Part shown: piece after piece, positions 12,101 to 62,439 of the stretch
Layout: each line of letters starts with the position of its first letter
Numbering within the stretch: position 1 is the first letter of the stretch
Assembly (NCBI RefSeq): GCF_963576615.1
Contig: NC_088711.1
Coordinates: forward strand, 25,576,182-25,640,181
DNA: 64,000 nucleotides
Source: Watersipora subatra
Taxonomy: Eukaryota > Bryozoa > Gymnolaemata > Cheilostomatida > Watersiporidae
Direction of reading: 5' to 3'
Program-made: the position numbers and the translations under genes
The notes under the pieces: model-generated
Database searches by the model: none
Told to the model about the DNA's origin: nothing
What the model saw: only the letters and a program-made list of their open reading frames with translations

Positions 12101-15100
12101 GTTACAAGTTGTTATAAAATTATTAGCTGATGAAAGACTATATATGTGAAGAATATAACAAGCTAAAACTTATTTTCCCTGACCGGAATAATTTATGATT
12201 TTTAAAAACTTTGGAAAAAAATTAAAAAGACCGGAACCATACGCTCTGGTTCTGACCCATCCGTATTTTGACCCGTTTGTATTTCGCAACACTGTGTAGA
12301 AAATAATAAGATGCTTGACTCGTAAACAATTGAAAATATTGTCTAAAGAATTCAACTTTAATGAAATTTTTGATCTAATTCAAGACTTGAACATTAGCAG
12401 GTAAAGAAACTGGCAGATATCGGGAGAAACAGGGTAAGCACTATACGAGTGGTGATTCTAATATATCACACGAATAAAAGTGCCAGAAGAAAGTAGTAAC
12501 AAAACCAGAAAGTTCGAACAACAATATCCCTCTTCCTCTGTTATTGGTCATTGCTTGGCATATGATTTATTACTTTAAATGGCGAATTCTCCAATCAAGT
12601 AGATATACGCTGCAACAAGGGTTTCAGCAACCAGACATTTGTCGTCTCTTTTGAGTTAATGGCTGAGTAACTTGTTATATTGCAGAAACTGCACTATAAT
12701 TAATTATTACGTGGGCCAACTATCTGCATTCCAATAAAAACATGGCAACAGAAAAGTACAGCAGCCTGTACCGACAGGGAATCAGCTATGAAGCATTAGA
12801 CGGCAGCAATTTTACAAAATTATAAGCGTAAAGATGCCAGTAAATAACAAAATCTGCACAGCTGACAGCTTTTATTCATTTCCATGGTTAAGGATAAAAT
12901 CCAGCCAATTATGACAAATGTGATATTTCACATACTGCAATGTGTTGAACATGTGCCAAGCCCGAGAATATGATACATGTGCGTTTCACACTATTATAAA
13001 CCATCTCATGCCTAAAGAATTGCTCAAAAAGCATAAGCTGGAACTGTTGCAGAACAGCAACGTAGCTAGTGAACAAACACCTATCACCTGATATAGCCAA
13101 AATCAACCTCGGGGAGAAGTTGACAAAATGACTGTTTCTTATGCATATCATATTTGCATGATGGCCCCCAGGCTATCGACGTACCAAAGCCGCAGTTATT
13201 TGAGTAATCTGACTAGCTCAAATTAAGCTACTAGTCAAACTAGTCTAAATTCACTGCTTTATTTAAATGCAAACAAACTTAACAAAGACTACCATGACAT
13301 ATGGCAAAAGGCTCACAGTCAATAACAAGTAACCAAAAGCACCTTTGTAAAAAAGAAAAAATGTAAAGCTTAACAATGATTGAAAAAATCCTGACTAATG
13401 CAAGCCTCACTGGGGTGCATGTGATGTTTTATTATTACCCAGATGAGGCTCGCTTACAATAACTCCTAAAATTAGATGATATAAGCATATAGCTACCCGC
13501 ACGCAGGACCATTTCCACTGGAGGCAACTGTAGCTTGACTGGTTACCGCGACTCATGATTAAGAACATACTTACTAACATCAATCAATTCACAAACCACG
13601 AAATACTTTGTGTTTACGTACATTTTCACCATCGTCATCTCTACAAGTACAGTAGAATTATTGGAAAATATCCAACAAATGATGCCCATCTGGTACAGCA
13701 TAACGTATTGTGTGTTAATGTATTATTGCCTTCATAAAGTGATGCAACTAGCGAGCTGAAGTTGTACCAACTTGGCTCCGCATGCTTTATAAAACCACAC
13801 AGACTGACTGAATCACTACATGTAGGATAATAATGATTTTGCTAGTGCAATTACATTATACAAATGATATTTTTAAGCCTGGTTCATACAGGAGGTCAAA
13901 TGAATGTAGCACTGATGGGATGTGCACTTGTCATATAATGCAAATGGTAATGTTTGGCTCGTTGAAACCTTTCCACACTGTTTGACATATAAGCCTCTGT
14001 GGGCAGTTACATATTTGGTAAATGAAAATACATGCTAAACATTGCACAAGTTTTAAGATGTATCTAGAAAAAGCCGATATTTTCGATCCTGATCAATTAT
14101 CAGAAAAAGAGATCTTAATTGCTCTATGCCAATCGAATACGAATCAATCTGCATCACCGACTGACCACCACATACATAACTGGAGTTTGACGAATGAGCC
14201 CGGATTTCACCAATTTTTCCTATACCCTATAGTCCAGCTATGGCCAAATGGCGGATCTAGATCCGGATCTTTGTAGTTTTTTGTGGATCTTTCAAGTTAG
14301 CTGTCAAAAAACCTTTTGAAGAATTTTTTTAATTTGTTTCAAAAAAGATTTTTGTAAACTTTTCTCAGAATTTTTGTAAATTCATTGTTTTCAGCAATGA
14401 ATTTTGTAAAAAGTACTCATAGAACACGACTCACAAATACTCATCTTCGTAAACTTTAAGAGTCGCTGTAAGTAGCAGATAACTGCGTTTTGATATTATT
14501 GTGAAGTCAAAGCCCACTTCATTTTTCTCACTGATATCAGACATTTATTACAGCACATTCCTTCACTGATTTTTAGTCAAATTATGTAGATAAGCAAAAT
14601 TTTGTAAAATCGTTTTTGATGCCTTGTTTAAGATATACATATCTTCAGCTTGGTTGTGGATCTTTCATTCGTCAGATTTGTCTGTAACGGATCATGGCCA
14701 AAATCATTTGGCCACCCCTACTATAGTCTATCAATATTTCAAGATCAATCAGATTATGTCAACAGTTATAGAGCGTCATGGCATTCAATTAGAGGTTTTA
14801 CGGTAAATGCATTGTCTTATTATTACGTTGAAGTTTTCTTTTAAATTTTTACAAACCTGTTCATTTACAAACCTGCGATGGTTGAAAAGAATCCAAACAT
14901 TGTATGTTGCCGATTACTAGGAGTGTAGAGTCAATTATTCGCTCGAATTTCATATTGTTCGTTGGAAACTGCGTATGTGTAAAATTATGTAAAATTCACA
15001 TACACATGCCAATATTTCTTAGCTGACTGTATTAAATAATACTGCTCATGCAGCGGCCTCTTTTGACATACCAGCTACATTCACCATCTATCCAACATAG

Positions 15101-17376
15101 ATGTATGTTCCCATTGTAGGCAAAAAGTAATAAATCCTAAAAATGACTCATTCTGGAGACCCCATGTCAAAACTGGCATAAGTGTAGAGAATATAATTTC
15201 CGAGAGGCGTAAAGAGCAGCATAATTCAAATGGCATCCAGTATGAACCAGGATTAAAGTAGCCTATCACTCTGTGTTAAGTTAGCATCCTTTGTTAATGT
15301 TAGGCAAACACAATGAACAATCCATAAAATTCATGTCATGTTGTTTTTGGGCCTTAAATATAAATTCATAAATGAGTATAATGAACTTATAACTATGCCT
15401 AATAGGAATCCTGAGTCAAACCAAACAAAGGAATATGAAGTTCAACGACATGCTGATAAAAAGGAACAATGGTTTTATTGATATTAAGTTCACTTACCCC
15501 TTGAAAACTTTAGCAATTGGAACTCTTGTGACATTCACGGATGTGTTCTTCGGCACCAGATCAGAGTCATTTTTGTAAACTAAAACAAATTATTTTTTGT
15601 ACAAATCCAAAAAAATCACGCATGCTTTTTAACACTAGCAATAACTCAAATGTTGAATTTTTTTGCGAACATAACGCACACGAGTAAAAAAAAGACAACA
15701 TCAGATGACAATATTATTTTCTGGCAATAATATTGATTCTGTATATATTTGAATGTTACAGACTAAGCCTAGTCAAATAATGATTATTTATAATCTGAAA
15801 GTTCAATTGTCACACTATAAACATGTCATCAGGGCTGATGTTAGTAAGCTAACCTTAAATAGATTAGGTGTTATTACTTAGATGTGAACAATTATTTTTA
15901 TATGTCATCAAATGACTGGTTGAGACACTAATTGTCCTCAAGCTCTGGTCAATTGTGCATGCACATTTTAATATTAACCAGTTGCAGATATACCTTGAAA
16001 AACAAATATAGTAGACACTCTTACAACGTAAACCTTTTTTTACATAAATCCAATTCACGTAAAGAACTTATGTTAAGTTTAAGAATCGTATTACATAAGA
16101 AATATTACGCAGAGTCAAGTTGGTGCAAGTTCTCAAATTCAATGTGAATAACGAAAGATACTTGTTAAAAAAAAATCGCTTTTTTTGCCAAACCAGAGAG
16201 AGAAACTGAGTATCTCCATTATATATAATAGTACACTGGCAGACTAATGCGTGGTCAGAGATTATCAGATGTCGACAAAATACAGAAAATAAGCAGCTAC
16301 ACAATAACTCCAAAATACCTGAAGTGGCCAATTGGTGCAAGGGTCTCGGCCTACCACCCCGAATATTACGAGTTGGAGTCGGGTTAAAAGCACGCTAACC
16401 CTGGCTTTGGACAAACACCGCGAGTGCAATAGTAAATATGTATTTTGTTCTAATTCATTTTCGACCTGTAGACAATTTTTTTTTCATTCCAGCACAGACC
16501 TTGTTGTCTAGAAAAAATTCCAGCAAAATTCGTTTTAAATTGACATTGAAGGTGTGCGCTTTTCTAATTTAATGTAAAATTACCATAGCCATGAAAGCCA
16601 AACAAAGGAGAAGAGATAAAACATGTTGTCAATATAAACCAATAGTACCACAGTTACTGTACAGTCACTACATTAAAGTTACTTTTTTCAATTTGAAGGA
16701 CCAAAAGGTTTTAGTTTGGGATGATCTTGCAACAGATTAGGAAATTTACCTGTATTTTACTGATCATAACATAAAATCTATAACGTAAACGTTCTCGGAA
16801 CGGATGATTTATGTTGTAAGAGCATCGAAAATCTATTGCATGACTTTTTTTACTTGTTCAAATGTTTAAACGCAGACTATGGGCAACCATAGTCCTGTCA
16901 CACAAACCTCTGGGCAACCATCCCCAAAGATATGAGAATGGTTACAAAGACTAAAATGTTTTGGCTAATTAAAGCCATAGTCGAGTAGTTCCACCAAAAC
17001 ATTAAACTCAATGAATTGCCGTAATTAAAATCGTATCTTTGCAAAAACAAGTTTTAACAAGTTTATTTTTAAATGCGCTGGTTAGACAATTGGTTATATA
17101 TAACAAGCAACAAAATAATATACATTGGCCTATATTTGTAAGACTTCTAATAGATCAAATGCGAAGAAAACGTATATCCAGTTGATATGTCACTCTCAGA
17201 TATATACCTTCTTTAGTTTGAGCATTGGTTATTTGAATGGAAAGGTCAGCGGATGGGGCTAACTTGCTTTTGTTGAGTATAGCGGTTCTCAAATCAGCCA
17301 AAGAAATTGACAGACCATCAAAGGTGATCGTGTCATGATCATTGCTACTTTGGAACTTATAATGAACGTGTGACAT
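1..17376 (-). CDS. RBBP6: RBBP6-like E3 ubiquitin ligase, 5' and middle part (gene continues beyond left edge)
   Basis: RBBP6 proteins are nuclear RING-type E3 ligases that also act in mRNA 3'-end processing (Mpe1 family). I joined these exons by splice sites and phase, in transcript order: 17376-17208, 15579-15498, 10936-10912, 10275-10240, 9863-9712, 9588-9388, 9204-9044, 8794-8554, 8246-8080, 7896-7801, 7702-7490, 7309-7227, 7045-6960, 6589-6554, 6436-6233, 2852-2718, 2323-2175, 2080-1601, 133-1. Together they give about 949 residues with all phases consistent. Domain order is DWNN (1-84), CCHC knuckle (153-166), RING (252-292), Ser/Thr/Pro-rich linker, a TKEEFY block typical of the family, an RS-like region, then a charged tail. 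The start is the ATG at 17376 (MSHVHYKF), the conserved DWNN N-terminus. The 25-nt exon at 10936-10912 is the least certain; the 36-nt exon at 10275-10240 is supported by weak alignment to the human linker. The C-terminus lies outside the window. Confidence 0.93.
468..1501. mobile_element. Palindromic TA-flanked MITE, family A copy 1
   Basis: The ends are inverted: CAGTCAAACATGGATAACTC at the left and its reverse complement at the right, each flanked by TA (466-467 and 1502-1503). This fits the Tc1/mariner superfamily, with pogo/Tigger-like ends. The centre (about 1060-1180) is a long hairpin with arms containing gggctagccgggtcacgc and gcgtggcgaaaatcct. No transposase frame exists, so it is non-autonomous. 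It lies in an RBBP6 intron, between exons 2080-1601 and 133-1. Confidence 0.85.
1601..2852 (-). CDS. RBBP6: RBBP6 exons for Tyr/Arg-rich and Lys/Tyr/Asp repeat region
   Basis: Exons 2852-2718, 2323-2175 and 2080-1601 continue the frame with Pro/Tyr/Arg-rich peptide (SPPPYRGEYRR, AYSPRREER) and then a highly charged 160-residue exon. Within the latter, a heptad-to-decapeptide motif around SKYDERHDGK recurs at least five times with variants (SKYDERYDGK, SKYEEKNEGR, SQYDGKYDDG). I end this exon at the GTATGT donor at 1600 because only that donor keeps the frame open into exon 133-1. The nearby GTAAGA would create a stop with the next exon. Confidence 0.85.
3216..3884. mobile_element. piggyBac-like MITE
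   Basis: Left end AACCCTTTCACTGC and right end GCAGTGAAAAGGTT are inverted. The right edge is TTAA (3881-3884); the left has ATAA, one change from TTAA. Such ends are typical of piggyBac-type MITEs. It lies in the intron between RBBP6 exons 6436-6233 and 2852-2718 and has no transposase frame. Confidence 0.7.
5220..6135. mobile_element. TTAA-flanked element, family B copy 1
   Basis: It starts TTAAAGGTTGACTTGCAAC and ends with the inverse. Terminal arms of over 100 bp (gatattcaccatgtc-like and ggtgcaaaatatgtgg) are inverted repeats. Four copies of about 0.9 kb occur in the window. TTAA at the edges suggests a piggyBac-type target, although TTAA could also be part of the inverted repeat. This copy lies in the intron between RBBP6 exons 6436-6233 and 2852-2718; its right edge has decayed to TTTA. 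No coding capacity. Confidence 0.8.
6233..6589 (-). CDS. RBBP6: RBBP6 exons for RS-like region
   Basis: A 36-nt exon (6589-6554) with REYKRKSL leads into a 204-nt exon (6436-6233) dense in Arg-Ser dipeptides, including RSRSRTPRGRSRSRSRRR and SPPPRRRSISPRP. RS repeats are usual in RBBP6 and target nuclear speckles. The donor GGAGGAG|GTGAGT lies at 6232. Local GC is clearly above that of the surrounding introns. Confidence 0.9.
6960..8246 (-). CDS. RBBP6: RBBP6 exons for Ser/Thr/Pro-rich linker and TKEEFY segment
   Basis: Five exons (8246-8080, 7896-7801, 7702-7490, 7309-7227, 7045-6960) encode a low-complexity Ser/Thr/Ala then Pro-rich linker, ending with SIMTKEEFYKTKAELLEQKM. The latter matches the human PLSREEFYREQRRLK block between the RING and the RS region. 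Donors and acceptors are canonical and the phases chain without a break. The linker is probably disordered; its sequence is not otherwise conserved. Confidence 0.88.
8554..9204 (-). CDS. RBBP6: RBBP6 exons for RING domain
   Basis: Exon 9204-9044 encodes CPLCKKIMTDAV and CCVTHFCDS. Exon 8794-8554 continues with CIREALLEDEDQSCPQC. Metal ligands fall at about residues 252, 255, 267/268, 273, 276, 289 and 292, the C4C4-type arrangement of RBBP6. This domain recruits E2 and makes the protein an E3 ligase. The following peptide (ESPDGLVPDIILRNAI) corresponds to the conserved human segment after the RING (VSPDALIANKFLRQAV). The domain is split by an intron in the middle of codon 276. No ligand is missing. 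Confidence 0.95.
9388..10275 (-). CDS. RBBP6: RBBP6 exons for linker and CCHC zinc knuckle
   Basis: Exon 10275-10240 encodes the linker peptide MNEDSHLTFLAK. Exon 9863-9712 continues it with AEQESIQAMM (human: EEDKIKAMM) and ends inside the knuckle at YICK. Exon 9588-9388 completes it with RCNKPGHFYMNC. The whole is C-x2-C-x4-H-x4-C, the canonical CCHC spacing, which binds one zinc and is associated with RNA binding. Downstream, the segment RRGHGIPIDFL replaces the human STGIPRSFM motif at the same place. Splitting the knuckle across an intron right after the first cysteine is visible in the phase of the join (AG|G). Confidence 0.92.
10912..10936 (-). CDS. RBBP6: RBBP6 putative 25-nt micro-exon
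   Basis: A 25-nt segment between a CAG acceptor and a strong GTAAGTG donor on the minus strand. It is the only piece I found that enters in the phase left by exon 2 and leaves in phase 0 as the next exon needs. It encodes about eight residues (FGLSAKSC). The peptide shows no clear similarity to the human linker, so support is phase and splice sites only. A different small exon could lie elsewhere in the 4.6 kb between 10936 and 15498. Confidence 0.4.
15498..17376 (-). CDS. RBBP6: RBBP6 exons 1-2: DWNN ubiquitin-like domain
   Basis: Exon 1 (17376-17208) encodes the signature start MSHVHYKF, then FDGLSISLADL and QITNAQTKE, which closely match the DWNN domain of animal RBBP6. Exon 2 (15579-15498) completes the fold with a stretch like DLVPKNTSVNVTRVPIAKV, equivalent to the human segment that ends in VRRIPIGGVK. 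The donor at 17207 reads GTATAT. The acceptor at 15580 is preceded by a TTTGTTTTAG tract. DWNN is a ubiquitin-like fold found only at the N-terminus of this family. The intervening intron (15580-17207) holds a tRNA-like SINE. Confidence 0.95.
16229..16440 (+). mobile_element. tRNA-derived SINE copy
   Basis: Leader acactggcagactaatgcgt, then a tRNA-like part (ggccaattggtgcaagggtc and gagttggagtcggg as box A/B-like stretches). The same leader plus module occurs at 28411, 29212 and 38941. It lies in RBBP6 intron 1, upstream of exon 2. Confidence 0.6.
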
Positions 17377-17625
17377 CGTTTTAACGTCAGGCAGAAATAC
17401 TGGGCAATCAAAAATTAAGTTGAACCCTGTCGCAGATCGTCAGCGTATAACGAGTTCTCCTAAAACAATATGACAACAGTTAACAAGTTGGTCTACAGTT
17501 TGAGTGAATTATCCTATAACTATATATTTGAGACAATCTACGAACCGAATAGAGTATTGCTTATCGGCCCGAAAATATAAGCCATTTCATCGCCATTCCT
17601 AAGTGAATAGAATAGAGATAGTATT

Positions 17626-19631: not shown

Positions 19632-22600
19632 ATGGCAACACGAGATGATGAGATCGAGTTGGGATTTGGTAAGCACCAAAGATATGTATTTATTACTTAT
19701 TACGGTATCATCAGCAGAGAACCGCATATATGGTAGATAGTAGCTATGCTAGCTTATGTATATTATTCTGTTTGCTTTACATAAATTTCACTTGTACCTA
19801 TACTTGTTATCTGTTAGTACAAGTTCCGCGTTTGCATTGAGTTCGGCAGCCTTGCATGTGTTTCTAAATGCTGTGTAAACATACCAGATGAGTACTAGAT
19901 GCTAATGAAACCGTATAATTATCACTTATAAATAATATGTGCGGCTATTGATGTAACTGTTGAAAAAGCCTGTACATGTCCTTCTGATCTGATTGTTTTC
20001 ACTGTGATCAGGTTGTGTTGATTTTATTCTTGAAACACTCTGGCAGTCCGACCACATAAAACATCAAACAAAATCTCAAATGATAAAAAAATGTCTGCAC
20101 TTTATGATAAAATCTTTTGAAGTTTGGTGTGACCCTTTAAACAGTATGTAGGCTAAACCAAACCATGTTGACTGTAGCGAACTTAATCAGTCAAATAAAT
20201 CAATAATTGATTTTGTTGTCTCCTGTGCTTTCTCACTACATGAGCTCTGTCAGGATGTTTAATTCGCATAATATAGTATTATACTTACCAATTGTGAGCG
20301 CCAATTACTCGATTAGACTGAATGAATATAATAAAATGCAAAATATTTATACATGAATTTGTTTATCTTTCACAAACCTAGAGTTGTTCCTCCTAATCAG
20401 ATTGGTTCATTCTGTTTAGCACGCAGTTGTCTCTCTCTTGTTTTAACCATCGCTATGCATTAAATACATTTTTTGTCTGCTATAGCACCTAGTTGAGCTT
20501 CTACTACATCACCACGCAGTTAGTTATACTTATTAATTTATTATAGACCGTAAGAGGGGTCAGGTGATACTCAGCTTCCTTTGGCTGCTGTTGATAATGT
20601 TAAATATTAACTTTGAGATTAACTTGATGTTTGAGATGACTGCCAGGATGTTTTAAGATTAAAATCGACAGAACCTGGTTATGGTTCAAACTTTTAGAAG
20701 AAAAATACGTGGCAAAATGAAGTAACTAGTTGCTATAGTTGATATTGATTATTGCGTTCGTTGCAGCCTTACACATCCTTATTTTGTCAGTCTATTTGCA
20801 ACTACCGGTATAATAGTCAAATCATAAACACACTTGATCTGAGTGTTTTAACCGTGATCAAGTTTTTTTATTCGACTCTTGAAACATCCTGGCAGCCAGA
20901 TCACCTCAAACATAAAAACAACCACAAATGATGGAAAAATACCGATACTTTCTGATAAAATCTATTAAAATTTTGTGTAAGTTTATCTTTAAAGGTTGAC
21001 TTACAACAAAATTCACATTACAGTTATTTGGTATCAAAAGATTCACCATGTCTCACTCTGTTGTGTTGTAGGTGCAAAATATGTGGAAATGTGATTACAA
21101 GCTCTTAAAAGCTCAAAAACGAAAAGCCGCCGTTGATTGGAATCTCTTTATTTCTCTGGCGTAGTCATGAAATTTATTTGTTGTTTTTTCGTGTGATGTT
21201 TTCATGTGAATAGAAAGGCCAATAAAAAGCTCAATATAAAACTTATCGTATCACTAGTTTATGACAAACACTTCGGGTTTTACCGAAGACCCCGTATCAA
21301 ATATAGATGCTCGCTACTTTACAGTTTTGTTTCGGTTTGGTCTAATCGGCAAACTGTAATCTGATCGTGTGACCCAATACTTCGCAAATAATTTTTGCAG
21401 CACTTTTCGATTATCACAAGTGACCAACAGGCTCGTCATGATTATCAGACAATGATATGTATTCCTTCGAGGTAAGGCTAAAAAATTAAACGAATTTTTA
21501 CGGTAAGTTATAAGATATCACTGCTAAAAGTGAGTAGTGACAGCATTACAATGATGCTAAAACAGCTGCGTAAGAACAATAGACATGGTTTTATTGAATG
21601 TGTGAAGTATATTTGTGAAAATATTTCGACAAATAAGGTTGCATGAAAGTGTAAACAGAAACCATCTCCCACAACTACGTCACGTTTGAGCCGTTTTGGA
21701 AAGAGAATCCAAACTACGGCGGCCTCGTGTGGCTGCGATTAACTGTTCGTTTTTTAGCTTTTAAGAGCTTGTAATCACATTTCTACATATTTGGCACCTA
21801 CAACACAATAGAGTGAGACATGGTAAATCTTTTGATATCAAATAACTGTAATGTGAATTTTGTTGCAAGTCAACCTTTAAGTAGCAAGCGGTAGGCAAAT
21901 TCCAATGATAATTATTAAAATGGTGTTGTACTCATAACTCCAAGGAAAAAGCGGGTGTGCGGCTATAATCTGTGCTGAAAAAGTTTTTGGAATATGTTAC
22001 ATATCGTTTGTTAATTAAAACAGTTTGTCGTAGTTTTCAAGTTGCCTAGGCTATCCTTAAAAGTAGCATCTTCAGAAAATTAGTTCATCATAGTCTCTCA
22101 TTCTAAACAATCTTACTAGAGTTTAAAATTTAACAGTGAATTTCATTTTTCCATTGATTTTATACCTGAGAAACTGACTCGTACAAAATTTACTGCCTTC
22201 TTTTAGTAGCAGCAGAGTACACAATTTGAACAGTTGCTAGGCACTAAATAGTTTAATAACGTATTCAACTCACCGGAGTTGGTTTAAACGAGTTCACCAG
22301 TTCATATTGAAATATCCTCTATATATGTGTACTAGGTGCCCCATGCTTATCAGTTATATAGTGTACTTATGATGTATACAACATGTAATGTACAGAATAT
22401 GTCTATTTCTTGTATATAGGTTGTGAGCATAATAGAGTCTTCTGTGGTAACAGTGCTGAGCCTAGAGCGTCAAAGAAATAAACCTTCACTGCCCTTCAAG
22501 AATCCGTACACATTCGTGTGTACAAATTCAAACAATATGAAAGATTATTATTTATGCGTTGTCAGTAATAGGAAAAAAGGAAGAGATAGAGTGCTTAATT

Positions 22601-25600: not shown

Positions 25601-28600
25601 GTCTCACAATATGGTGATGGATACTGAAATAAAGTGTTAATATCTGTGTGCTGTAATTAAGTTTATTTGAGTTTGTACTCTGGTGTTTATATATGCCAGT
25701 TCGATTCTTGCTTAGCTGATTGCTATGGGGGTCGTATATGATTGCTACATGAGGTATGTACGTATGTATGTACCTCAATATCTTTGAATGCAAAACATAA
25801 AGCCCACAAAATATAAAGATACTATAGTGACACTGGTTAGTAAAGGAATAGAGTTACCATATCAACAATGCGCTGATTAGTAGAGAAATAGAGTTACCAC
25901 ATCAACAGTGATATTCCTTTATATATGATAGTTGTGTCACAATCTCACCACCTGTAATAATGAACAGGGTGAGATGATGATGCTCATAAAGCATTTCAAA
26001 CAGTTAGTGATAGGCTCTGGTGTAGTTTGTATCAGCCTTTCTGTATGGTTATCTCCAGTTTTAACATGCAATGTTGTAATAATTGTCTTTAGTGATAGCT
26101 GTGAAAGGAGTTTTTCAATATACAGTGAAACATGGATAACTCGCCCTCGGATATAGCGAACACATGGTTAACTCGAATGGATTTGCTTGGTCTGTTCCCA
26201 CGCAATGATAAATGGTTCTATATAACTCGAACTCAACACTGTTAATTCGAACTGTTTTTTGCCCAACGGTTACCGAAACGGTTGCTATCGCTTTAGAAAA
26301 TCACTTTATTCCAAGCCATAGAGGTAAACCTCAACTTTTCGTAATTCATAAGCGTCGTTATTACCTCCATCGGCAAAATATTTTTGTCAACGACTTTTTT
26401 AAAGGTTTGGTGAAATTTGATTTATACTCCTATACGATGAGTAGCACGGGCTAGCCGGGTCACGCACGCAAGGATTTTCGCCACGCACATACAAAACAAA
26501 AACAGCATGTTGTTTTTGTTTTGTATTTGCGTGGCGAAAATCCTTGAGTGCGTGAACCGGCTAGCCCGTGATGAATAGTTTTCCGACGTTGATTCCGTGT
26601 TGAATCAACGTCGGAATGTTGAATGTTTAAAACGTCTTAAAAATTGTTGTAATTAAACGTATACGTTGTCTTAGCTAAAAAAACTAATCATCGTTTGACC
26701 TAAACACAGAATACGTGTGTACATCCAATAAGTATCCATTAAAAAAGCGTGAGTGATATACAATGTACCGTAAAACCTCGTAAAACTTTTAATTGAACTG
26801 CCTCGGAGTGTTGCTCTTAACAAATCCCAGGTAAAGTAAGGTAATCTTTGCATAAACTTCAAGAAAAATCGGCAAAATTGATCGTGGGTAAAACGCTCAA
26901 AAGAAAAAGATGTCTTTTCTTTTGAGCATTTCAACAACGATCAAGTTTTGCCAATGTCAATCTAAAAAACGTCCTGGCAATAACATCACCTCAAACAACG
27001 AACCAATCTCAAGTGATAGAAAAATCTCTATACTTTTTGATATACTTTACATTAGAAGCATTTAATTTGAAACAAGCCGTTTGTGCTTTTGATTTATATT
27101 ATAGTTTGTATATGTACATGTATCTACTAATAAATAAGTAAATACATGGACTTGTGACAGTGCTCTGATAACTTGAACGCTCTGATAATTCGAACACTTT
27201 TGCTCGGTCCCTTGAAGTTTGAGTTATCCGAGTTTCACTGTATTTCTACATCTGCTGATATGCAGTTAATCAGTAAACCACAAATGTTTTGATAAGGTAG
27301 CCTGAGTTTCTCTAACCATGTTAAATCTGTAATAATTACAGAATTATGTATTTCAGTAATTCATGTATTACTTTATGTATTTCAGTAATTATTTCTAGTG
27401 TCCTGGACTACACGTTAAATCTGTAATTACCTGTGTCTTGGACAATGGAGGTTTGCATGGGATCTTTGTACTCGTACTCATTGGCAGTTCTTTTTTGGTG
27501 TTTTTGATTATGTGATATGCCGACATGCGTCACGCCAACTATTTAGACTGAGGGTAAGCCATGGTTACCACTTCACTCGGTCCGCAACTAAAAACCAGCA
27601 GAGGTTACTAACAGTGAAGTAGCGGCTGCTTAACCAAAAGACCTAGCTAGACTGCCAATTTTTAAGTCCAACGACAATTGCACACCTAACATATCTTTTG
27701 AGCTCATTTTAATCCCATCAAAAATTAGTAGAATATTATTTTTTTGGCAAACAGGTTCATAGCCCCATGATTTTCTCTAGCTCCTTGTCCTCTCTTGGAC
27801 ACCACTTGCTCATGAAGAGGCTTCTTTCTCAGTCTGTTTTATTTATTTTAATATGATGTTACGGAGCCGAAATGTTCAATTACGCATTTCAAAAAAATTT
27901 AAGATAAATAATACCAGCTTTTATAAGTGCTTTCAGATTTCATTCGCTGTTATATGTGTACTAAGTATGTGTGACCTTGAAGCAATGTTATGGGTGGTCT
28001 AGCTGGTGTTATCTTTATGACTCATCAGTACTGATCAAGCAGCCTAGCTAAGCAGTCGTCTTGAATTATCCTTGTCAACATTCATACAATAAAACCACCT
28101 TGAGGAAACTCCACATTATAATATTCGCGTACCCCAGAGCATCACGCGGAACAAAAATATCTATCATCGATTTGGGTATATCAAAGCATCCATTATTCCT
28201 AGATATATCCATAAACTTGAGAGTTATCCTTTTGGTGCCATTTTTAGCGGTGTGGCAGATGCAGCAATTACTCTAACAGTGATTTGCAAGGGAATCTTAT
28301 GAAACACTTTTACCATAAACCAAGCACGTTTCTTACAAGAGAACTTTTAATAATCGTAAATTAAAAGCATCAAAATATTTGTGAAGATTTCGGCGCATGA
28401 CTTTTAAAAATGCACTGGTATTGTCGTTGTGCTGTGGGAAATCGTCAAGTCTAATAAGTAACTGCAAAATTATTCCAAAATGTTGCATGGTGATCGATTG
28501 GAGCAGGTGGTAGAGTGTCGATCTGGAGGCTGAGAGTTCAATTCCCGTTAAAAGAAATCCTTTTCTAACCTCTGAGCATGGTTACTGATGGACTCGGTTA

Positions 28601-42000: not shown

Positions 42001-45000
42001 TTCCGTAGGATTTTAAAATATTGTCTACAAATGACGGTCCTTTACCTAGGTGCGGAGAATAATTACAAAACATTGCATTCTAGTAAAGATAATGTTACCA
42101 GACTTGTTTATTTGTCTGAGTAGCGATATATTGATTGGTAGAGCAGATTCAACCATGGCTAACGGTGCCATGATACAGTCAAGGTAGGAGAATATTATGC
42201 TCTTTAGTTTCATAATAATCGTTTGTCTGCAGGACAATGTTTCTATATGGAGCCACCCTCGGGGTCTACTTCTTTGTGGCCATGTTTCCATGCGGCAGCG
42301 AAGGCAATTTTAAATGTGAACTGGTGAGTCTATTATCATTTTACAGTCTTTTGTCTTTGTCCATTTCCATGAGCCAATTAATCAAAAATACTGTGCTTAA
42401 TAGATTATGGAACAGTTTTTGTTGAGAATAGTTTAAAACCATTTTTGTTGTAAAGAGCTTTCAATTTTTCAAAGTTGCTGTGGCTGCCAAAACTGGTAAA
42501 ATGTGGGTTTAGTAAAGTTTATGAATTTTTTCTACCGCTGCCCTTCCTAAAATGACTAGCACCTTATGAACAGGAAAAAGTTTAATATGGTTAAGAAATG
42601 CACAAAACTGTATGGTAATAATCTCCTATGTTGATTAATCGAGCTCCATTTTGTTCATGCTTTAGGAGGGGTGCTGGGAGACACGCCTCGGTACGAAAGC
42701 TTACACTCTTGTCGTAATTGACTTCTTGTTTGGAATTATCATTTCTCTGGTGGCTGAGGTTCTTTACAGGTAATATATGTGTGGTTGACGAGTCATTGAA
42801 ATCCAATTGATGTAATTTCTTATTTTCTGTAGCTGGTGAATAACAATTTGTATTACAAGTGAGTAGCTATTGACAACACTGAAGTCAACATCTTAAAGTT
42901 TAGCTATTGACAACACTGGAGTCAACATCTTAAAGTTAGAATGCATTTAAATTTATTCCCTAAAGTTACTCTTGCTATAGCAACAACAATGCATAGAGTA
43001 CTTCATATTGGTATCTAGGGACAGACATTGCTGCCCCTCCATAGACCTATTAACTATATTAGTATAGCTAATAAGTCTATGTGCCGCTCTAACTTTATGT
43101 TATCTGTCCTTTATGTAAATTAGACATGAAATATTCCTACTCTGGCATGATGTACACATGGTGCTGTTAAGGGGGTGCGTTGGTTTGCAGGCTCGTTGCT
43201 CAGTTCTGCTGTCAAAGGTGGGAAGCTCAGCAGAAGGAGGAACAAGAAGGACATTCAATTTATCCGCAATTTGATATAGCGAGGAACACTATGGCCATCA
43301 TATACAATCAATTTTTACTCTGGTTAGTGAAGTTCTATTCTTTTGTTTTCTGCCATTAAAAAGGTCAAGGTAAAATTATCTAGAATAGTTACTTCCATTT
43401 GGACTACAAACTTGGTAAGTTCATGTAGCAGTTATAGCTGTACGACGGAGTAGACTATCGATAATAACCTAAGTCTAGCTAAGAACTAAATTTTCTGACT
43501 AGCTTTGCTACTTGATCAGCTAACAGTAGCGGTAGTTGGTATCTATTGCTTGTGAGATTGTCAGTGTATAAAAGATATCTAACCATCAAATACATTTATT
43601 TTTTAGGCTCGGCATCTATTACAGTCCTCTCTTAACTGTTGTGGTAGTCATTAAACTATGGATCACATTCTATTTTAAGAGGGTAAGTAATAAGTAAACC
43701 TCTGAAGTGCAATCATTGTTGTTTTTTTATTAAAGATTTGTTCAGACAGATAAGCAATATGCTTGACATGGTGCTGCGTGATTGTTAATGAACTACTGTT
43801 TTATAAAGGCTAGTTGAGGCTTTAGTAAGTGCACTCTTGGTCTCTTCATCGCATTTCCATGGTTTGTAAGATATTAATTGATATAAATAAGTGCAGCACT
43901 ATAAGTATATCGTGTATACGAGAGCCAACATTTTTCTTTCACCCATGGTGACAAATGAAAACTGTCTGAAATATTTTTCTGTTTCTATTTCTCACTTACC
44001 CCTTAAGAACTTACCCCTTAAGAATTTATTCCTGGCTGATATTTTCACTTACCCCTTAAGAACTTACCCCTTAAGAACTTACCCCTTAAAAACTTACCCC
44101 TTAAGAACTTACCCCTTAAGAACTTACCCCTTAAGAACTTACCCCTTAAGAACTTACCCCTTAAGAACTTACCCCATAAGAACTTACCCCTTAAGAACTT
44201 ATCCCTTAAGAACTTACCCCTTAAGAACTTACCCCTTAAGAACTTACCCCTTAAGAACTTACCCCTTAAGAACTTACCCCTTAAGAACTTACCCCTTAAG
44301 AACTTACCCCTTAAGAACTTACCCCTTAAGAACTTACCCCTTAAGAACTTACCCCTTAAGAACTTACCCCTTAAGAACTTACCCCTTAAGAACTTACCCC
44401 ATAAGAACTTACCCCTTAAGAACTTACCCCTTAAGAACTTACCCCTTAAGAACTTACCCCTTAAGAACTTACCCCTTAAGAACTTACCCCTTAAGAATTT
44501 ATTCTTGGATATTTTCAATTTTTTGACTTCCTAATTAAAACTTAGCCTTGTCATTAGCAAAAACTTTGTTAAAGGTTGACTTGCAACAAACTTCACATTA
44601 CAGTTATTTGGTATCAAAAGATTCACCATGTCTTACTCTGCTGTGTTGTAGGTGCAAAATATGTGATTACAAGCTCTTAAAAGCTCAAAAACGAACAGTT
44701 AATCGCCGCCACCACGAAACTGCCGTATATTAGAATCCCTTTCCAAAACGGCTCAAATGGGACGTAGATGAACGAAATAGCTTGTTTGCACTTTCATGCA
44801 ACCTCATTCGTCGAAATATTTTTACAATTATACTTCACGCATTCAATAAAACCATGTCTGTTGTTCTTACGCGTCTGTTTCATCATCATTGTAATGCTGT
44901 CATTTGAGCACTGATATCTCAAAACCTACCGTAAAAATTCGTTTGATTTTTTAACTTTGGCTCGAAGGAGTGCATATCATTCTCTGACAAACATGACGAG

Positions 45001-48000
45001 CCTGTTGGTCACCTGTGATAGTCAAAAAATGCTGCAGATATTATTCGCGCTGTTTGGCAGGAAGTATGGGTCTCATGATCAAATTACGACTAGACTATTA
45101 GACCAAGCCGAAACAAAACTGGAATGTAGCGAGCATCCATATTTGATGCGGGTTTTTCGGTAAAACCCGAAGTGTTTGTCATAAACTAGTGCTGCGAGGA
45201 GTTTTATATTGAGCCTTTTATTGGCCTTTCAATTCACGTGAGAACATCGTGTGTCAAAACAATAACCAAATCGTTTGAATACATCGGAGAAATAAATTGA
45301 TTCCATTCTACGGCGGTTTCGTGATGGTGACGATTAACTGTTTGTTTTTGCGCTTTTAAGAGCGTGTAATCACATTTCCACATATTTGGCACCTACAACA
45401 TAACGGAGTAAGACATGGTGAATCTTTTGATACCAAACAACTGTAATGTGAATTTTGTTGCAAGTCAACCCTTTAAAGTTTAAAGTTTGATAACATAATC
45501 TGAATTAAACCTTCTATTATTCGATGACATTTATTGATGTCATCATGTTGACATCTATTGATTTATCAGTGTTTAAAGATAGTAATACTGGAACATTAAA
45601 AACAGTAATAACAAATAACACTCTTTAATATTTTTTGGGAATGGTTTGTTCAAAATACTAAGAGAAGCTAACTCCAAGCTTCTGTATTTGAATTGTGCAG
45701 TGGTCAAATTCTTATAGGTGACTGTGATGAATTCATGCATACCAACTACCAAACCATGGAGAGCTGCCAAGATGCACACCGTATTCCTTGGACTCCTTTT
45801 CATTGGATTCATTGTCTGTATCGTTGCTTTCACTGCTGCCGTCGCTGTGTAGGTGGTCTGGCGACATGGTGTTATCACCATTTAACCCAAAAACTGTTGC
45901 CCTCTTGTTTCATTGTCACTATGGTAAAGATACTGATTGTATAGAGATATGTCATTTGAGAATAGCATGAATAGCATCACCTCCAGTGCTGGTAGCTCAC
46001 TAAGCTCTTGGCAAGCATTTAAGCTACTGCTTTGGAACCTAGCTGGTCGTAGAATTTGGAACCTAGTTGGTCGTAGAATTCAAATTATATATAAAATAGC
46101 TGCAACAATATGTAGCAGAGGTATTTAACTTGAGGTTAAACATGATCTGGCAATGTCGACGCATTTAATCAAAGGTTATCTTCTCGTGTAACAATTTATA
46201 ACCATTCAGCACCTATTCGCATGGGCAATGTGCAGTAACGCAGGTCTATGACACACACATTGTAGTCATTATAGTAACTGACTATCTACTCAATTAAAGG
46301 AAAAAAATTATTGCTTTGGGCACAAATTGTCACTGTATCTTTTTTGACAGCTAATGCATTTAAAAGACTTGTTTGAAATAGCTTAGCATTTGTCACAAAA
46401 AAATCTTAGCCTTTTCAAAATTTGGATACGTTGTCATCCCACCATTTCCATCCCATTCATCACATCTTTGGTTACCTACTGACGCCGTCTGTCAATATCA
46501 GAAGTATCGCAATTTTCATTTGTTCTGTCAATCTCATTTAAAAATTACATGACAACACAGTAACAATCTACCCCGTCTAGCTGCTGAAAAGATATTAAAA
46601 TAGACTGTTTCCGCGATTTATGCCCATATGAATTATTGCATCATCAACAATCAAAATGCGGAGTTGTTAGAATTTTAGCTTCTGCCGCCGCTCAAGCGTA
46701 GACCAAGGGAGACAAATCTAGAAATTATTTTGGTATAAATCTTAGCACGAAAAAGCTATTACTAGTTGAAGTTGTTCAACCTTTTGCGTTACATTCCTGT
46801 TTCAAGTTATTTGTTAACTTTTGACAATTTTGGCTTTAAGAAGCTGGTAATGCGTGAGATTATGTTATTAGCTATGCATTGCATCAAACTCGATCTGTGA
46901 TATTTGCTTTTACTCATTTTATCAGTTACCTTTTTGAACAGTACCGCAGAGCTGATATCATGTCATACTTCTATTTAACCTGAAGGCGAAATATAAAATC
47001 TATTGCTTGCTAGAGATGGCTTCTTTTTTTCCAATGGTGTAACCTTCAATCGCCAGCAACATTCTGTGTAGAGTTTATATGGAGTATTGAGCTAAACTTG
47101 TTCTTATTTGTTATGTATGACTTATTACTTTTATTGATTACCCTTTCGAGTATTGTGTGTTACATCATTACCCACACTTTTAGGAGTGTGGGTAATGATG
47201 TAACACATAACCTGACACTTATCCTATAGTGTTCTTTTAGGAGTGTGGGTAATGATGTAACACATAACCTGACACTTATCCTATAGTGTTCTTTTAGAAG
47301 TGTGGGTAATGATGTAACACATAACCTGACACTTATCCTATAGTGTTCTTTTAGAAGTGTGGGTAATGATGTAACACATAACCTGACACTTATCCTATAG
47401 TGTTCTTTTAGGAGTGTGGGTAATGATGTAACACATAACCTGACACTTATCCTATAGTGTTCTTTTAGAAGTGTGGGTAATGATGTAACACATAACCTGA
47501 CACTTATCCTATAGTGTTCTTTTAGAAGTGTGGGTAATGATGTAACACATAACCTGACACTTATCCTATAGTGTTCTTTTAGGAGTGTGGGTAATGATGT
47601 AACACATAACCTGACACTTATCCTATAGTGTTCTTTTAGAAGTGTGGGTAATGATGTAACACATAACCTGACACTTATCCTATAGTGTTCTTTTAGAAGT
47701 GTGGGTAATGATGTAACACATAACCTGACACTTATCCTATAGTGTTCTTTTAGAGTGTCTCCATCAACAACTTGTGGACCATTTATGGGTCTTAAGAAGC
47801 CGAGTGACATAATTCAATCAGCGATTGGCGAGGCTGATCACATGGTGACAAACATAGTACTGTCACCCGGTGTTGTCGTCGGTGTCATAGTTGTACTTTG
47901 GTAAGAACCTACCTACCTGCTAGTTATTACTAAATAGCATGGATGTAATGTTCAACTCCCACTGCGCAGTGTAGCACTCACTTTATATCATTCTGTTACT

Positions 48001-52713: not shown

Positions 52714-54740
52714 TTATTTTCTCCAAGGTTTAGAGCCGGCTCGCTTGCCTTTTCTTTTCTGTTTTGCCTTTTTCTTTTCTGCTCCTTTTGCACGTTTTAT
52801 CGCTCGCTTGTTCATCCAGACAGGAAAACTCCCGCTGTCTGTTCGTGAACCCACTCCCATCGGCAGCTCTTCTTGCTCTAAAACAAAGTAGTCAGATGTA
52901 GGTTGCCAGATGTAATATAATTAAACAAATAGCGGTATTGCATGACTAATGCTTACGGTCACACAGGGTCGAATCACAGTGTTGCAATAGGAAATGGCAA
53001 GCTTTTAAGTATTTTTAATATCCGGTATCCTACCAAAATTTAATGTTTACTGTTTTACATTAATAACAATATCTCATCAGGCTCAATAAGTAGAAACTGG
53101 GAAGCTGTGTTGATTTACTGATCCTGCACAAACCATGTTATCAAAATTGGAATGCGCTACCCTTCTGTCATAAATTGGAGTGATGCAGTTATCCCTTGTG
53201 TCTCTCTGGGTCAAGCAAGCACACGTCGAAAAGGATTGCTGGTTGGTCAACTATGAGTGATGACAGGCTTACACACAGAAGACTATGTCATAATGAACAT
53301 GAAACAACAACTCTATTCAAAATATGGGTCAAATAGAACAAGCTATCTGAAATAAAAAACAAATAGCAACAGAAATTATATGTAAACCTTAAATATAACA
53401 ACATTGTTCAATGACATTAATAACAAAGAGGTATAACAATCAGGTAATTCTTTTATAATTAAAATGCATTTTATGGTAATTTTAGCATGAATTTGGTAAA
53501 TACATCTGCCATTCGTTGTGAGATACCAGTTAAAAAATTATCGAACAACTAATCAATGTGGCATGAATGAAAAGTCTTAAATATGACAAAGTTCAATTAT
53601 ATTGCTAACTTGTGCTATTTTTAAATAAACAAATGGTGGGAGAGAGAGCCTAGTCGAATGCTTCAAACTCTTCTGGATTATATACCTACATATACTATGC
53701 TTGTACATTCAACGATCTGTTTATATTTTTTTAACTGAAAGCAGCAATTTAAAATGCTACCTCCAAATCGACAGGCAATACATATGTAAGCAGTATAAAG
53801 AGAGAATCAAACTCACCCAAAAATATCAAAGTGTAAGATTACAACTTATCCAAAATTGCTAAGTTATCTCAACCTCGGGAGTTAGTATTTGCTTGATTGA
53901 TATATTGGTACGGCTGTTTCCATTTTGATGGCCTTGAACAAGATCAAGTAAAGCCATTTCACCTCCATAAGACGATAAGGCTAATCACTTATGCACAAAC
54001 CTATGCCTCGCATCATAGATTATGGTTGACCACCTGTTGTTTGGCTATGTATTATTACATGCAACGTTATACGCTGCTGTACATTTTTTAACTTACAATG
54101 GATTATTTGAATTATTACCTGTACATAATAGCAATATACAAAATATTGTTATTAGATTTTCAAGCAGCTATTTCCAAACCGACAGGCTTTGTTAATAACC
54201 AAACCTGATGTGAACTTATTCCTTCTGAAGTTTGTTAATAACCAAACCTCATGGCAACATAGTTCTTCCGAGGTTTGTCAATAACCAAACCTGATGTCAA
54301 CTTATTCCTTCTGAGAAATAAGTTCACATCAGGTTTGGTTATTAACAAGCCATATTTTAATAAGATTAGCGAACTCATGTGACTGGTGGTAAAAATCATT
54401 GCAATGTAAGCATTTAAAATAGCATTCAAATATAGTTGCCTTTGCTTTCACTCAAGTGCCTAAACATTTGTTTAAAAAACCACTGATATTTACCTTCATC
54501 TGCATCAGCCGCCTTCAAAGTAGGCTGTTCTCCATCAACTATCATTTCCTCAACTTGAACCGTAGAAGAATCGGTAGTCGGTGCACCAAGCACTGTGTAT
54601 ACTTTCTCAGGTTTTGGTGCTATACCTTCTTTCACTTGCTGTACCATCTTCTCCAATTTGGCTAATTCTTTCTTCGAATTCTTCTCCCGTTTTAACGCAC
54701 GGTTGGCTCTTTTAATTTTACTTCGTCCACTTTTGGCCAT
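52714..54740 (-). CDS. LLPH: LLP homolog (LLPH / LAPS18-like) nuclear protein, complete two-exon gene
   Basis: LLPH is a small basic nucleolar/nuclear protein, first described as a learning-associated factor in slug neurons. Exon 1 (54740-54494) starts MAKSGRSKIKRANRALKRE (human MAKSLRSKWKRKMRAEKRK) and ends GATGAAG|GTAAAT. Exon 2 (52877-52714) begins after a TTTGTTTTAG acceptor and encodes the conserved FPVWMNKRAIKRAKGAEK, like the human YPIWMNQRQRKRLKAK, then a Lys/Arg-rich tail and stop at 52714-52716. The join is phase-consistent and gives 136 residues, close to the family length of about 130. The 1.6-kb intron carries a short tandem/inverted repeat. The gene is convergent with TMC, 2.7 kb apart. 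Confidence 0.93.
54190..54350. repeat. Short tandem and inverted repeats in LLPH intron
   Basis: A unit of about 55 bp (gttaataaccaaacctgatg and cttattccttctga) is present about three times, then followed by its inverse (catcaggtttggttattaac). The last tandem copy and the inverse form a hairpin. Confidence 0.8.
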
Positions 54741-60429: not shown

Positions 60430-61480
60430 ATTCTTATGTCTCCGCTTTTATAATTAAGTGGCATGTCTTGTACAGATGAGTTCTATTCAATAGGTAAACA
60501 AGGCAGGACTGTTTTTAATGACTAAAAAGTTACACGAGACTTTATTTTGCAATAATCATTAAACAGAAGAACAGCTATATACAATTATCATTTTCAGTTT
60601 GGGATACAACAGAGCTTAGGCAAAGAACTTCATGTTTGGCACTGCCAACAGCAATGAATCGTTGTTGTGAATCGGTTAAATGACATAAGACAGACCATTA
60701 TAGTATCCCACTTAGTTACATATAACGAACCTCTAAATGAGCGCAGTTTTACAGCGTGATGAACGACTATCAATTCATGTATTAGATTCGAACAAATTAC
60801 TGTACCAAATCAATAGATTTTCACTGTACTAAGTCTGACAATTACACAGCTTGTTCTCAGAATTTAATAAAACATTTTGACAGCAGATTTTTTTACGCTT
60901 ATAAGGCACTTTAGCTTTTTACAACAATGAGATATGTCATATCGTAGTCCCCTAGTAATTATGTTGTGTCTAAATCATTTGATAAAAGTTTTGGCTTGGC
61001 ATGCAATAGGATTTGAAGTATAAGTTGAGTTCTTTCTCAATCAGTACACCAAATATCAACTGAATGTTTGCGCGCACAAGAAAGTCCCAGTTGTAGACGC
61101 CACATTAAATCTCACTTGGCTGCGATCATTCGCTGTTTGTTTGAGTCACGATCCAAAACAATTTACTTTCAGACTCTAGTTTTGTTAAAGCTGTTGTATA
61201 GAAAAAGCAGATAGAATAATGGAGAAACCTCTAAACACCGGAGACATACACAATATTACAACGAACATAACATCTAATACATTAGAGAACCAGCAATAAA
61301 GACAGTCATCATATACTCATGCACAAGCAGCTTAGAAATCGCATTCGGAAGAAATCCATAAGGAAAGAGTCATCAATCGACATAGCAGAAAAGTATTAAA
61401 AGATATCAGTCCTGTACTAGACACGACCAAGACAATTGGAGTTGGTCATCATTTCCAATCATTATACTCTCATGACGTAC
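60430..61480. other. Intergenic, no feature recognised
   Basis: AT-rich, without a supported exon or clear repeat ends. The last 200 bp lead into the family B element at 61481. Confidence 0.4.
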
Positions 61481-62367
61481 TTAAAGGTTGACTTGCAACA
61501 AAATTCACATTACAGTTATTTGGTATCAAAAGATTCACCATGTCTTACTCTGTTGTGTTGTAGGTGCCAAATATGTGGGAATGTGAATACAAGCTCTTAA
61601 AAGCTAAAAACCGAACAGTAAATCGCAGCCACACGAGACCGCCGCAGTTTGGATTCTCTTTCCAAAACGGCTCAAATGTGACGTAGCTGTGGTAGATGGT
61701 TTCTGTTTACACTTTCATGCAATCTCATTCGTCGAAATATTTTCAAATATACTTAACGCATTCAATAAAACCATGTCTATTGTTCTTACGCGTCTATTCT
61801 ATTTTGTCTTCATTGTAATGCTGTTACTTTTAGCAGTGATATCTTATAACTTACTGTAAAAATTCATTTAATTTTTTAACCTTACCTCGAAGGAGTACAT
61901 ATCATTGTCTGATAATTATGACGAGCTTGTTGGTCACCTGTGATAATCGAAAAGTGCTGCAGAAATTATTTGCGAAGTATTGGGTCACATGATCAGATTA
62001 CGACTTGCCGATTAGACCAGGCCGAAACAAAACTGTTAAGTAGCGAGCATCTATATTTGATACGGGGTCTTCGGTAAAACCCGAAGTGTTTGTCATAAAC
62101 TAGTGCTACGATAAGTTTATATTGAGCGTTTTATTGGCCTTTCAATTCACGTAAGAACATCACGTGACAAGACAATACCAAACAATCATGACTACGTCAG
62201 AAAAATAAAGAGATTCCAATCTACGGCGGCTTTTCGTTTTTGAGATTTTAAGAGCTTGTAATCACTTTTCCACACATTTGGCACCTACAACACAACAGAG
62301 TAAGACATGGTGAATCTTTTGATACCAAATAACTGCAATGTGAATTTTGTTGCAAGTCAACCTTTAA
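61481..62367. mobile_element. TTAA-flanked element, family B copy 4
   Basis: TTAA at both edges and full terminal arms. Its internal orientation matches the copy at 44569. It lies immediately upstream of an LTR-like block that begins near 62440, so it may have inserted into the 5' part of that block. Confidence 0.85.
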
Positions 62368-62439
62368 GACAACTTCACTCAATTGCTAACCCTCTTCAAC
62401 ATAAAGAACAGAACCTGAGCGTCTAAACACCTTCTCACA

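Follow-up and report, generated by a model that had tools for sequence, protein, structure and literature searches.

An intron of an animal TMC (channel-like) gene in the analysed window, a stretch of 64,000 nucleotides (C4:25576182-25640181), ends in a tandem array of ten nearly identical 57-bp units that runs into the acceptor of the following exon, and the last copy of the repeated acceptor is the only one that leaves the reading frame open. The array bears at its left end an inverted copy of part of its own unit. The results are best explained, with a probability of about 60%, by a locus-specific neutral minisatellite of the 'mirage' kind, a type of repeat that is rare but known, which would have been born from a hairpin and in which the last acceptor would be used and give protein.

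The array was placed within a gene model comprising ten exons between 40911 and 49742, downstream of the 5' exons. Joined by GT-AG introns, these exons returned a single open frame of 391 codons, whose product matched the Pfam TMC family (PF07810) at 6.8e-30 over residues 132-250, the match stopping before the exon adjacent to the array. When a 274-residue part was compared with solved TMC proteins, E values of 5e-25 and 4.4e-20 were obtained for 7usw_A and 8tkp_A respectively, and both alignments continued through the start of that exon (SPSTTCGPF); we take the two structures to be C. elegans TMC-1 and TMC-2. The exon upstream of the array is located at 45718-45848 on the forward strand and leaves phase 2 at its donor, CTGT/GTAGGT, and the exon 3' of the array, 147 nt in length, is located at 47754-47900 on the same strand and ends at the donor TTTG/GTAAGA, both being supported by GT-AG borders, an open joined frame and the TMC match. 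The intron between them spans 45849-47753 and is closed by the productive acceptor TTTTAG (47748-47753, forward strand). The exon border at 47754 proposed by the original prediction was thus borne out by the GT-AG joining, the open frame and the TMC alignments crossing the exon start. Two more TMC-like loci, at C1:67346126-67346548 and C4:13149138-13149557, show long open frames of 640 and 617 aa; as both read open across the region, without a matching intron, they were discarded as an intron comparison.

TRF analysis delimited the array at 47177-47758, with a period of 57, 10.2 copies, 98% matches and 0% indels. By TRF, repeat search and register alignment, ten units were positioned at 47178-47747 on the forward strand, which differ from one another only at one G/A position immediately 3' of TTTTAG; from left to right, this position reads GGAAGAAGAA (G G A A G A A G A A). 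Ten copies with one variable site are not the product of base composition, and the ten-unit 57-bp array reaching the TMC exon acceptor, as originally described, is real. The range originally given for it begins at 47156; the array is indeed present in that stretch, but the array proper begins at 47177/47178, and 47153-47182 is occupied by the inverted copy, which the earlier account of the array had overlooked. The variable site showed a rhythm of three units, lag 3 matching in 6 of 7 comparisons; as 9 of 210 arrangements are equally good and lag 3 was one of six lags examined, a higher-order three-unit repeat finds only weak support and was rejected.

The hexamer TTTTAG occurs eleven times, spaced at 47178+57k, and the last occurrence closes the intron. 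Nine of the upstream occurrences, starting at 47235, 47292, 47349, 47406, 47463, 47520, 47577, 47634 and 47691 (span 47235-47696, forward strand), are decoy acceptors that share 51 of 51 upstream bases with the true acceptor. The leftmost one (47178-47183, forward strand) is sited at the hairpin loop and is a partial acceptor copy, with 19 of the 51 upstream bases, so that the ten near-identical upstream acceptors previously claimed come down to nine. A branch-point-like CTGAC stretch, a putative branch point by its consensus, lies at 47725-47729 on the forward strand, 25 nt from the AG of the productive acceptor, and recurs every 57 bp upstream; each unit also contains a second AG (TATAG), which precedes the main AG by 11 nt. 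The initial five bases of the exon, AGTGT, are found in the 57-bp unit too, and the array, with its TRF end at 47758, spans the intron-exon boundary, including the acceptor and these five exon bases, the exon share being small.

The consequences of using each acceptor were derived by translation from the upstream exon in phase 2. All ten upstream TTTTAG sites yielded V followed by SVGNDVTHNLTLIL (14 residues) and then TAG, in agreement with the about 14 residues and TAG stop announced beforehand; the same stop is common to all units because 57 bp correspond to 19 codons. The inner TATAG acceptors change the frame and also reach stops (three of ten were translated). Among the TTTTAG sites of the array, only that at 47748-47753 leaves the frame open, which lends sequence-level support to the idea that the most distal acceptor alone is productive. 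On the minus strand the array reads open for 217 codons; this is explained by a 19-codon unit with one of six frames stop-free, and an antisense gene was discarded. A Pfam search with a 97-residue piece of the antisense frame returned nothing above the cutoff, the best match being SCAB-ABD at 21.5 bits against a cutoff of 25.

Splice-site scores and folding do not single out the last acceptor. A crude matrix built from a tiny set, the nine other acceptors of the same TMC gene, returned 0.3 for the true site, 7.2 for three decoys, 2.6 for six decoys and -4.6 for the leftmost site, the differences among array sites stemming from the exon-side bases. Since the ten real acceptors scored leave-one-out ranged from 0.0 to 11.7, the matrix decides nothing between decoys and true site. 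Two features speak against the mirage reading: the true site scores below nine of the ten decoys, so that its own sequence does not account for the choice of acceptor, and the A/G that follows TTTTAG in the units is absent at the exon, which makes the exon-side homology imperfect. The mean unpaired probability of the true TTTTAG was 0.74 in the array alone and 0.67 with flanks, where one decoy equalled it, which places the site among the more open ones in these two global folds, and 0.194 in the local fold, where five decoys were higher (up to 0.325); structure as the reason for the choice of the last acceptor was therefore ruled out. The whole array folds better than its shuffles (z -7.57, 20 shuffles), which is expected of any repeat that carries an inverted copy.

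These data bear on the regulatory reading put forward with the original prediction, in which the units would serve as poison acceptors, use of an upstream copy leading to a stop and to less TMC output, with the repeat number setting the level. Such a role would agree with the uniform stop after V and 14 residues at all ten upstream TTTTAG sites, with the identical upstream context of nine copies, which were not scored weaker than the true site, and with a donor-side precedent in the human ABCA7 VNTR (PMC5954066). However, any intronic stop would act alike, a stop being likely within 57 random bases, and the corresponding lancelet structures are described as harmless to splicing in the available accounts (PMC3087553, PMC3902484); we consider this role unlikely. 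Under the mirage reading, the splicing machinery would mostly pick the exon-adjacent acceptor through exon definition, exerted by the exon of 147 nt with its donor GTAAGA, and transcripts spliced at an upstream AG would reach TAG after V and 14 residues and presumably be lost to decay.

The inverted arm is the feature that bears most on the origin of the array. Identified by repeat search at 47153-47182 on the minus strand, this left arm is an inverted copy of part of the unit and is complementary to each of the ten units, either over 26 nt at 96% or over 30 nt at 93%. Together with the first unit it builds a hairpin at 47153-47210 (forward strand) with perfect arms of 23 bp, a loop of 6 nt and a predicted energy of -42.3 kcal/mol (z -10.9), which none of 200 shuffles equalled. 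The loop region reads CACACTTTTAGGAGTGT and the native acceptor reads GTTCTTTTAGAGTGT; CTTTTAG is present in both, and both borders of the unit lie within it.

On this basis an order of events can be inferred, namely hairpin, duplication and expansion. An ancestral short perfect hairpin would have stood about 57 bp upstream of the exon, and the CTTTTAG shared by its loop and by the native acceptor would have provided the microhomology for a tandem duplication that copied the right arm of the hairpin together with the native branch-point, tract and AG. A duplication running from CTTTTAG to CTTTTAG predicts a unit made up of right arm, CTGAC, tract and AG, as observed. Further rounds would have led to ten units; the exon would still be spliceable because it is the native acceptor that closes the last unit, and the other nine acceptor copies would be by-products. 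The near-identical units running into the acceptor and an arm complementary to every unit argue for the mirage reading, as does a second array in the window with an inverted copy at one end (54188-54314). The frequency of inverted flanks speaks against it, as these do not generally accompany arrays: among 28 arrays of at least 100 bp and period 12-200 collected from the window and a genome sample, only three have one, namely the present array, that at 54188-54314 and a third whose inverted flank is a single AT-rich 13-mer. Inverted flanks as a general rule for arrays were therefore rejected. The array at 54188-54314 is made up of three copies of 43 bp, behind which an inverted one stands at about 54314-54350 (54188-54340 overall), the latter being nearer to the first unit (GTGAAC) than to the third (GTCAAC).

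As the left arm can pair with any unit, a second functional reading was considered, in which it would act as a docking arm for a single repeat at any one time, the preceding acceptors being looped out; pairing with the tenth repeat would conceal all nine decoys and expose the productive acceptor. The array would then represent a docking/selector system at birth, in which an intronic hairpin arm and an acceptor were duplicated, one docking arm facing ten selectors with no exon yet duplicated, and copy number and pairing choice would determine how much of the TMC mRNA is productive. The thermodynamic ensemble indeed predicts pairing of the left arm with exactly one of the ten repeats (medians sum to 1.0), the predicted stems end immediately upstream of each CTGAC, and duplication of a stem-loop arm giving rise to competing structures was proposed by Ivanov and Pervouchine (PMC6071210). 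The preferred partner is nevertheless repeat S3 and not the tenth, with probabilities of 0.41 for S3, 0.29 for S10, 0.14 for S9 and 0.13 for S6 in the array alone, and of 0.71 for S3, 0.21 for S9 and 0.03 for S10 with flanks. In growing transcripts the minimum-energy partner shifts outward with back-steps (S1, 2, 3, 4, 3, 6, 7, 6, 9, 10). The first repeat is transcribed first and is predicted to form the very stable hairpin described above, and the folds do not consistently show the true acceptor as more accessible than the decoys. In a comparison with Dscam-type systems, a single site complementary to many tandem copies and exclusive pairing, predicted here, are shared with docking site and selectors (PMC6071210), whereas in Dscam each selector serves a different exon and in TMC ten selectors would serve copies of one acceptor, and a coding exon follows only the final copy. 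Docking and selector sequences belong to mutually exclusive exons, and here there is one exon and the other copies lead to a stop. A docking device is, by these model-based predictions, improbable.

The genomic distribution of the unit was examined in the assembly, which comprises 784 Mb in 239 contigs. Two units searched against it returned at least 10 matches, all in this array or its inverted arm; by this search, whose counts are lower bounds, the unit is locus-specific. An origin as part of a mobile element, by which the acceptors would have been imported, such as an introner-like or MITE-like insert, might be suggested by the inverted arm, which at one end resembles a terminal repeat, and by the presence of transposon-like repeats in the genome. 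Dispersed elements of this type have copies elsewhere; here, by contrast, all of the at least 10 matches found in 784 Mb fall at this locus, self-comparison of the window at E 1e-4 gave no match for array or left flank outside the array, and no target-site duplication was seen by eye around the array. A scan of viral contigs with a 39-base stretch returned 0 matches. A mobile origin is accordingly very unlikely.

The mirage reading instead requires ingredients that are at hand, since this genome is rich in both minisatellites and short perfect palindromes. TRF repeats make up 3.4% of the window, and 15.3% of the part in which the TMC gene was modelled; in the genome sample (200 kb, 20 stretches at round coordinates, 36.6% GC) they make up 5.8%, and 13 merged loci there reach 200 bp or more. 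Perfect palindromes with arms of at least 12 number 15 in the window and 0, 1, 0, 3, 0 and 0 in six Markov shuffles, and 13 palindromes with arms of at least 15 that are not plain AT runs were recognised by eye in the genome sample, among 198 rows consisting mostly of AT runs. By supply, an array at a splice site is unsurprising, and what needs selection is the retention of the site.

Other repeats were also observed in the window. A repeat family whose members measure about 0.9 kb and have inverted ends, with 81-91% identity between full copies, occupies 44570-45488, 5204-6135, 20987-21883 and 61478-62375, one copy sitting in the intron upstream of the exon that precedes the array. Two repeat copies at 532-1508 and 26116-27086 (93%) contain internal perfect palindromes, and the motifs of these palindromes are met again in the genome sample. 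Another TMC intron harbours 33 copies of ACTTACCCCTTAAGA at 43994-44501, the reverse complement of which contains GGTAAGT, a 5'-splice-site-like motif on the antisense strand. Finally, frames on the minus strand at about 6200-17440, with a ubiquitin-like start, a RING-type C-x2-C stretch and an RS-rich part, resemble what we presume to be RBBP6.

The closest known structures are the lancelet mirages, minisatellite-like repeats across intron-exon boundaries described for Adh3, the globins BflGb6 and BflGb9, TnC and PGBD5 (PMC3087553, PMC3902484), with Adh, TnC and PGBD5 presented as further cases in the second report (PMC3902484). In BflGb6 the unit comprises the 3' end of the intron and the 5' part of the exon, one haplotype carries 6 units and another 3, and regular splicing is undisturbed, as RT-PCR suggests (PMC3087553). 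The TMC array likewise crosses the intron-exon boundary and, as in mirages with AG/GT signals in many units, nine of its ten upstream TTTTAG sites are full acceptor copies. It differs from the published descriptions in that the exon adds only about five bases, in its nearly identical units, in the inverted arm at one end and in belonging to another gene; the words 'inverted' and 'hairpin' are absent from the main text of the lancelet globin paper (PMC3087553). A lancelet mirage was misassembled in a draft genome (PMC3087553), which would be a precedent for an assembly artefact in the copy number or the existence of the present array; against it stand chromosome-scale contigs and, more weakly, the single variable site with its three-unit rhythm, and we hold such an artefact to be highly improbable.

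In human ABCA7 the intron 18 VNTR begins with the exon 18 donor and has a 25-bp unit present in 12 to about 427 units between alleles; use of the donor in the next unit, with retention of one unit and a premature stop, was demonstrated (PMC5954066). There too a real splice site forms part of the repeat, and splicing at the neighbouring unit brings in one extra unit with a premature stop, but ABCA7 concerns the donor side, and the TMC array the acceptor side with a branch-point-like stretch, tract and AG per unit. The 38-bp VNTR in human TERT intron 6 shows that intronic repeats can affect splicing via RNA:RNA pairing (PMC3948165). Intronic repeats with RNA pairing are common to both, pairing being predicted in the TMC array, although the TERT repeat lies more than 1 kb from exon borders and pairs with other parts of the pre-mRNA, as tested by compensatory mutation (PMC3948165). 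Less close is the viral EBV IR1, whose repeated units each carry W exons (PMC12451641). Examples of tandem repeats crossing such borders in open-licence PMC text include the lancelet genes and human ABCA7.

Ten acceptors that share a 51-nt upstream context, of which only one gives protein, offer a natural test of whether, among identical sites, the spliceosome takes the first that it meets or the one bordering the exon. The sequence of the inverted arm also displays the step by which, in the proposal of Ivanov and Pervouchine, competing RNA structures arise (PMC6071210). If only the last copy is used, the array would support exon definition and extend mirages beyond the lancelet cases considered here; if upstream copies are used too, the copy number of the array would tune the TMC gene.
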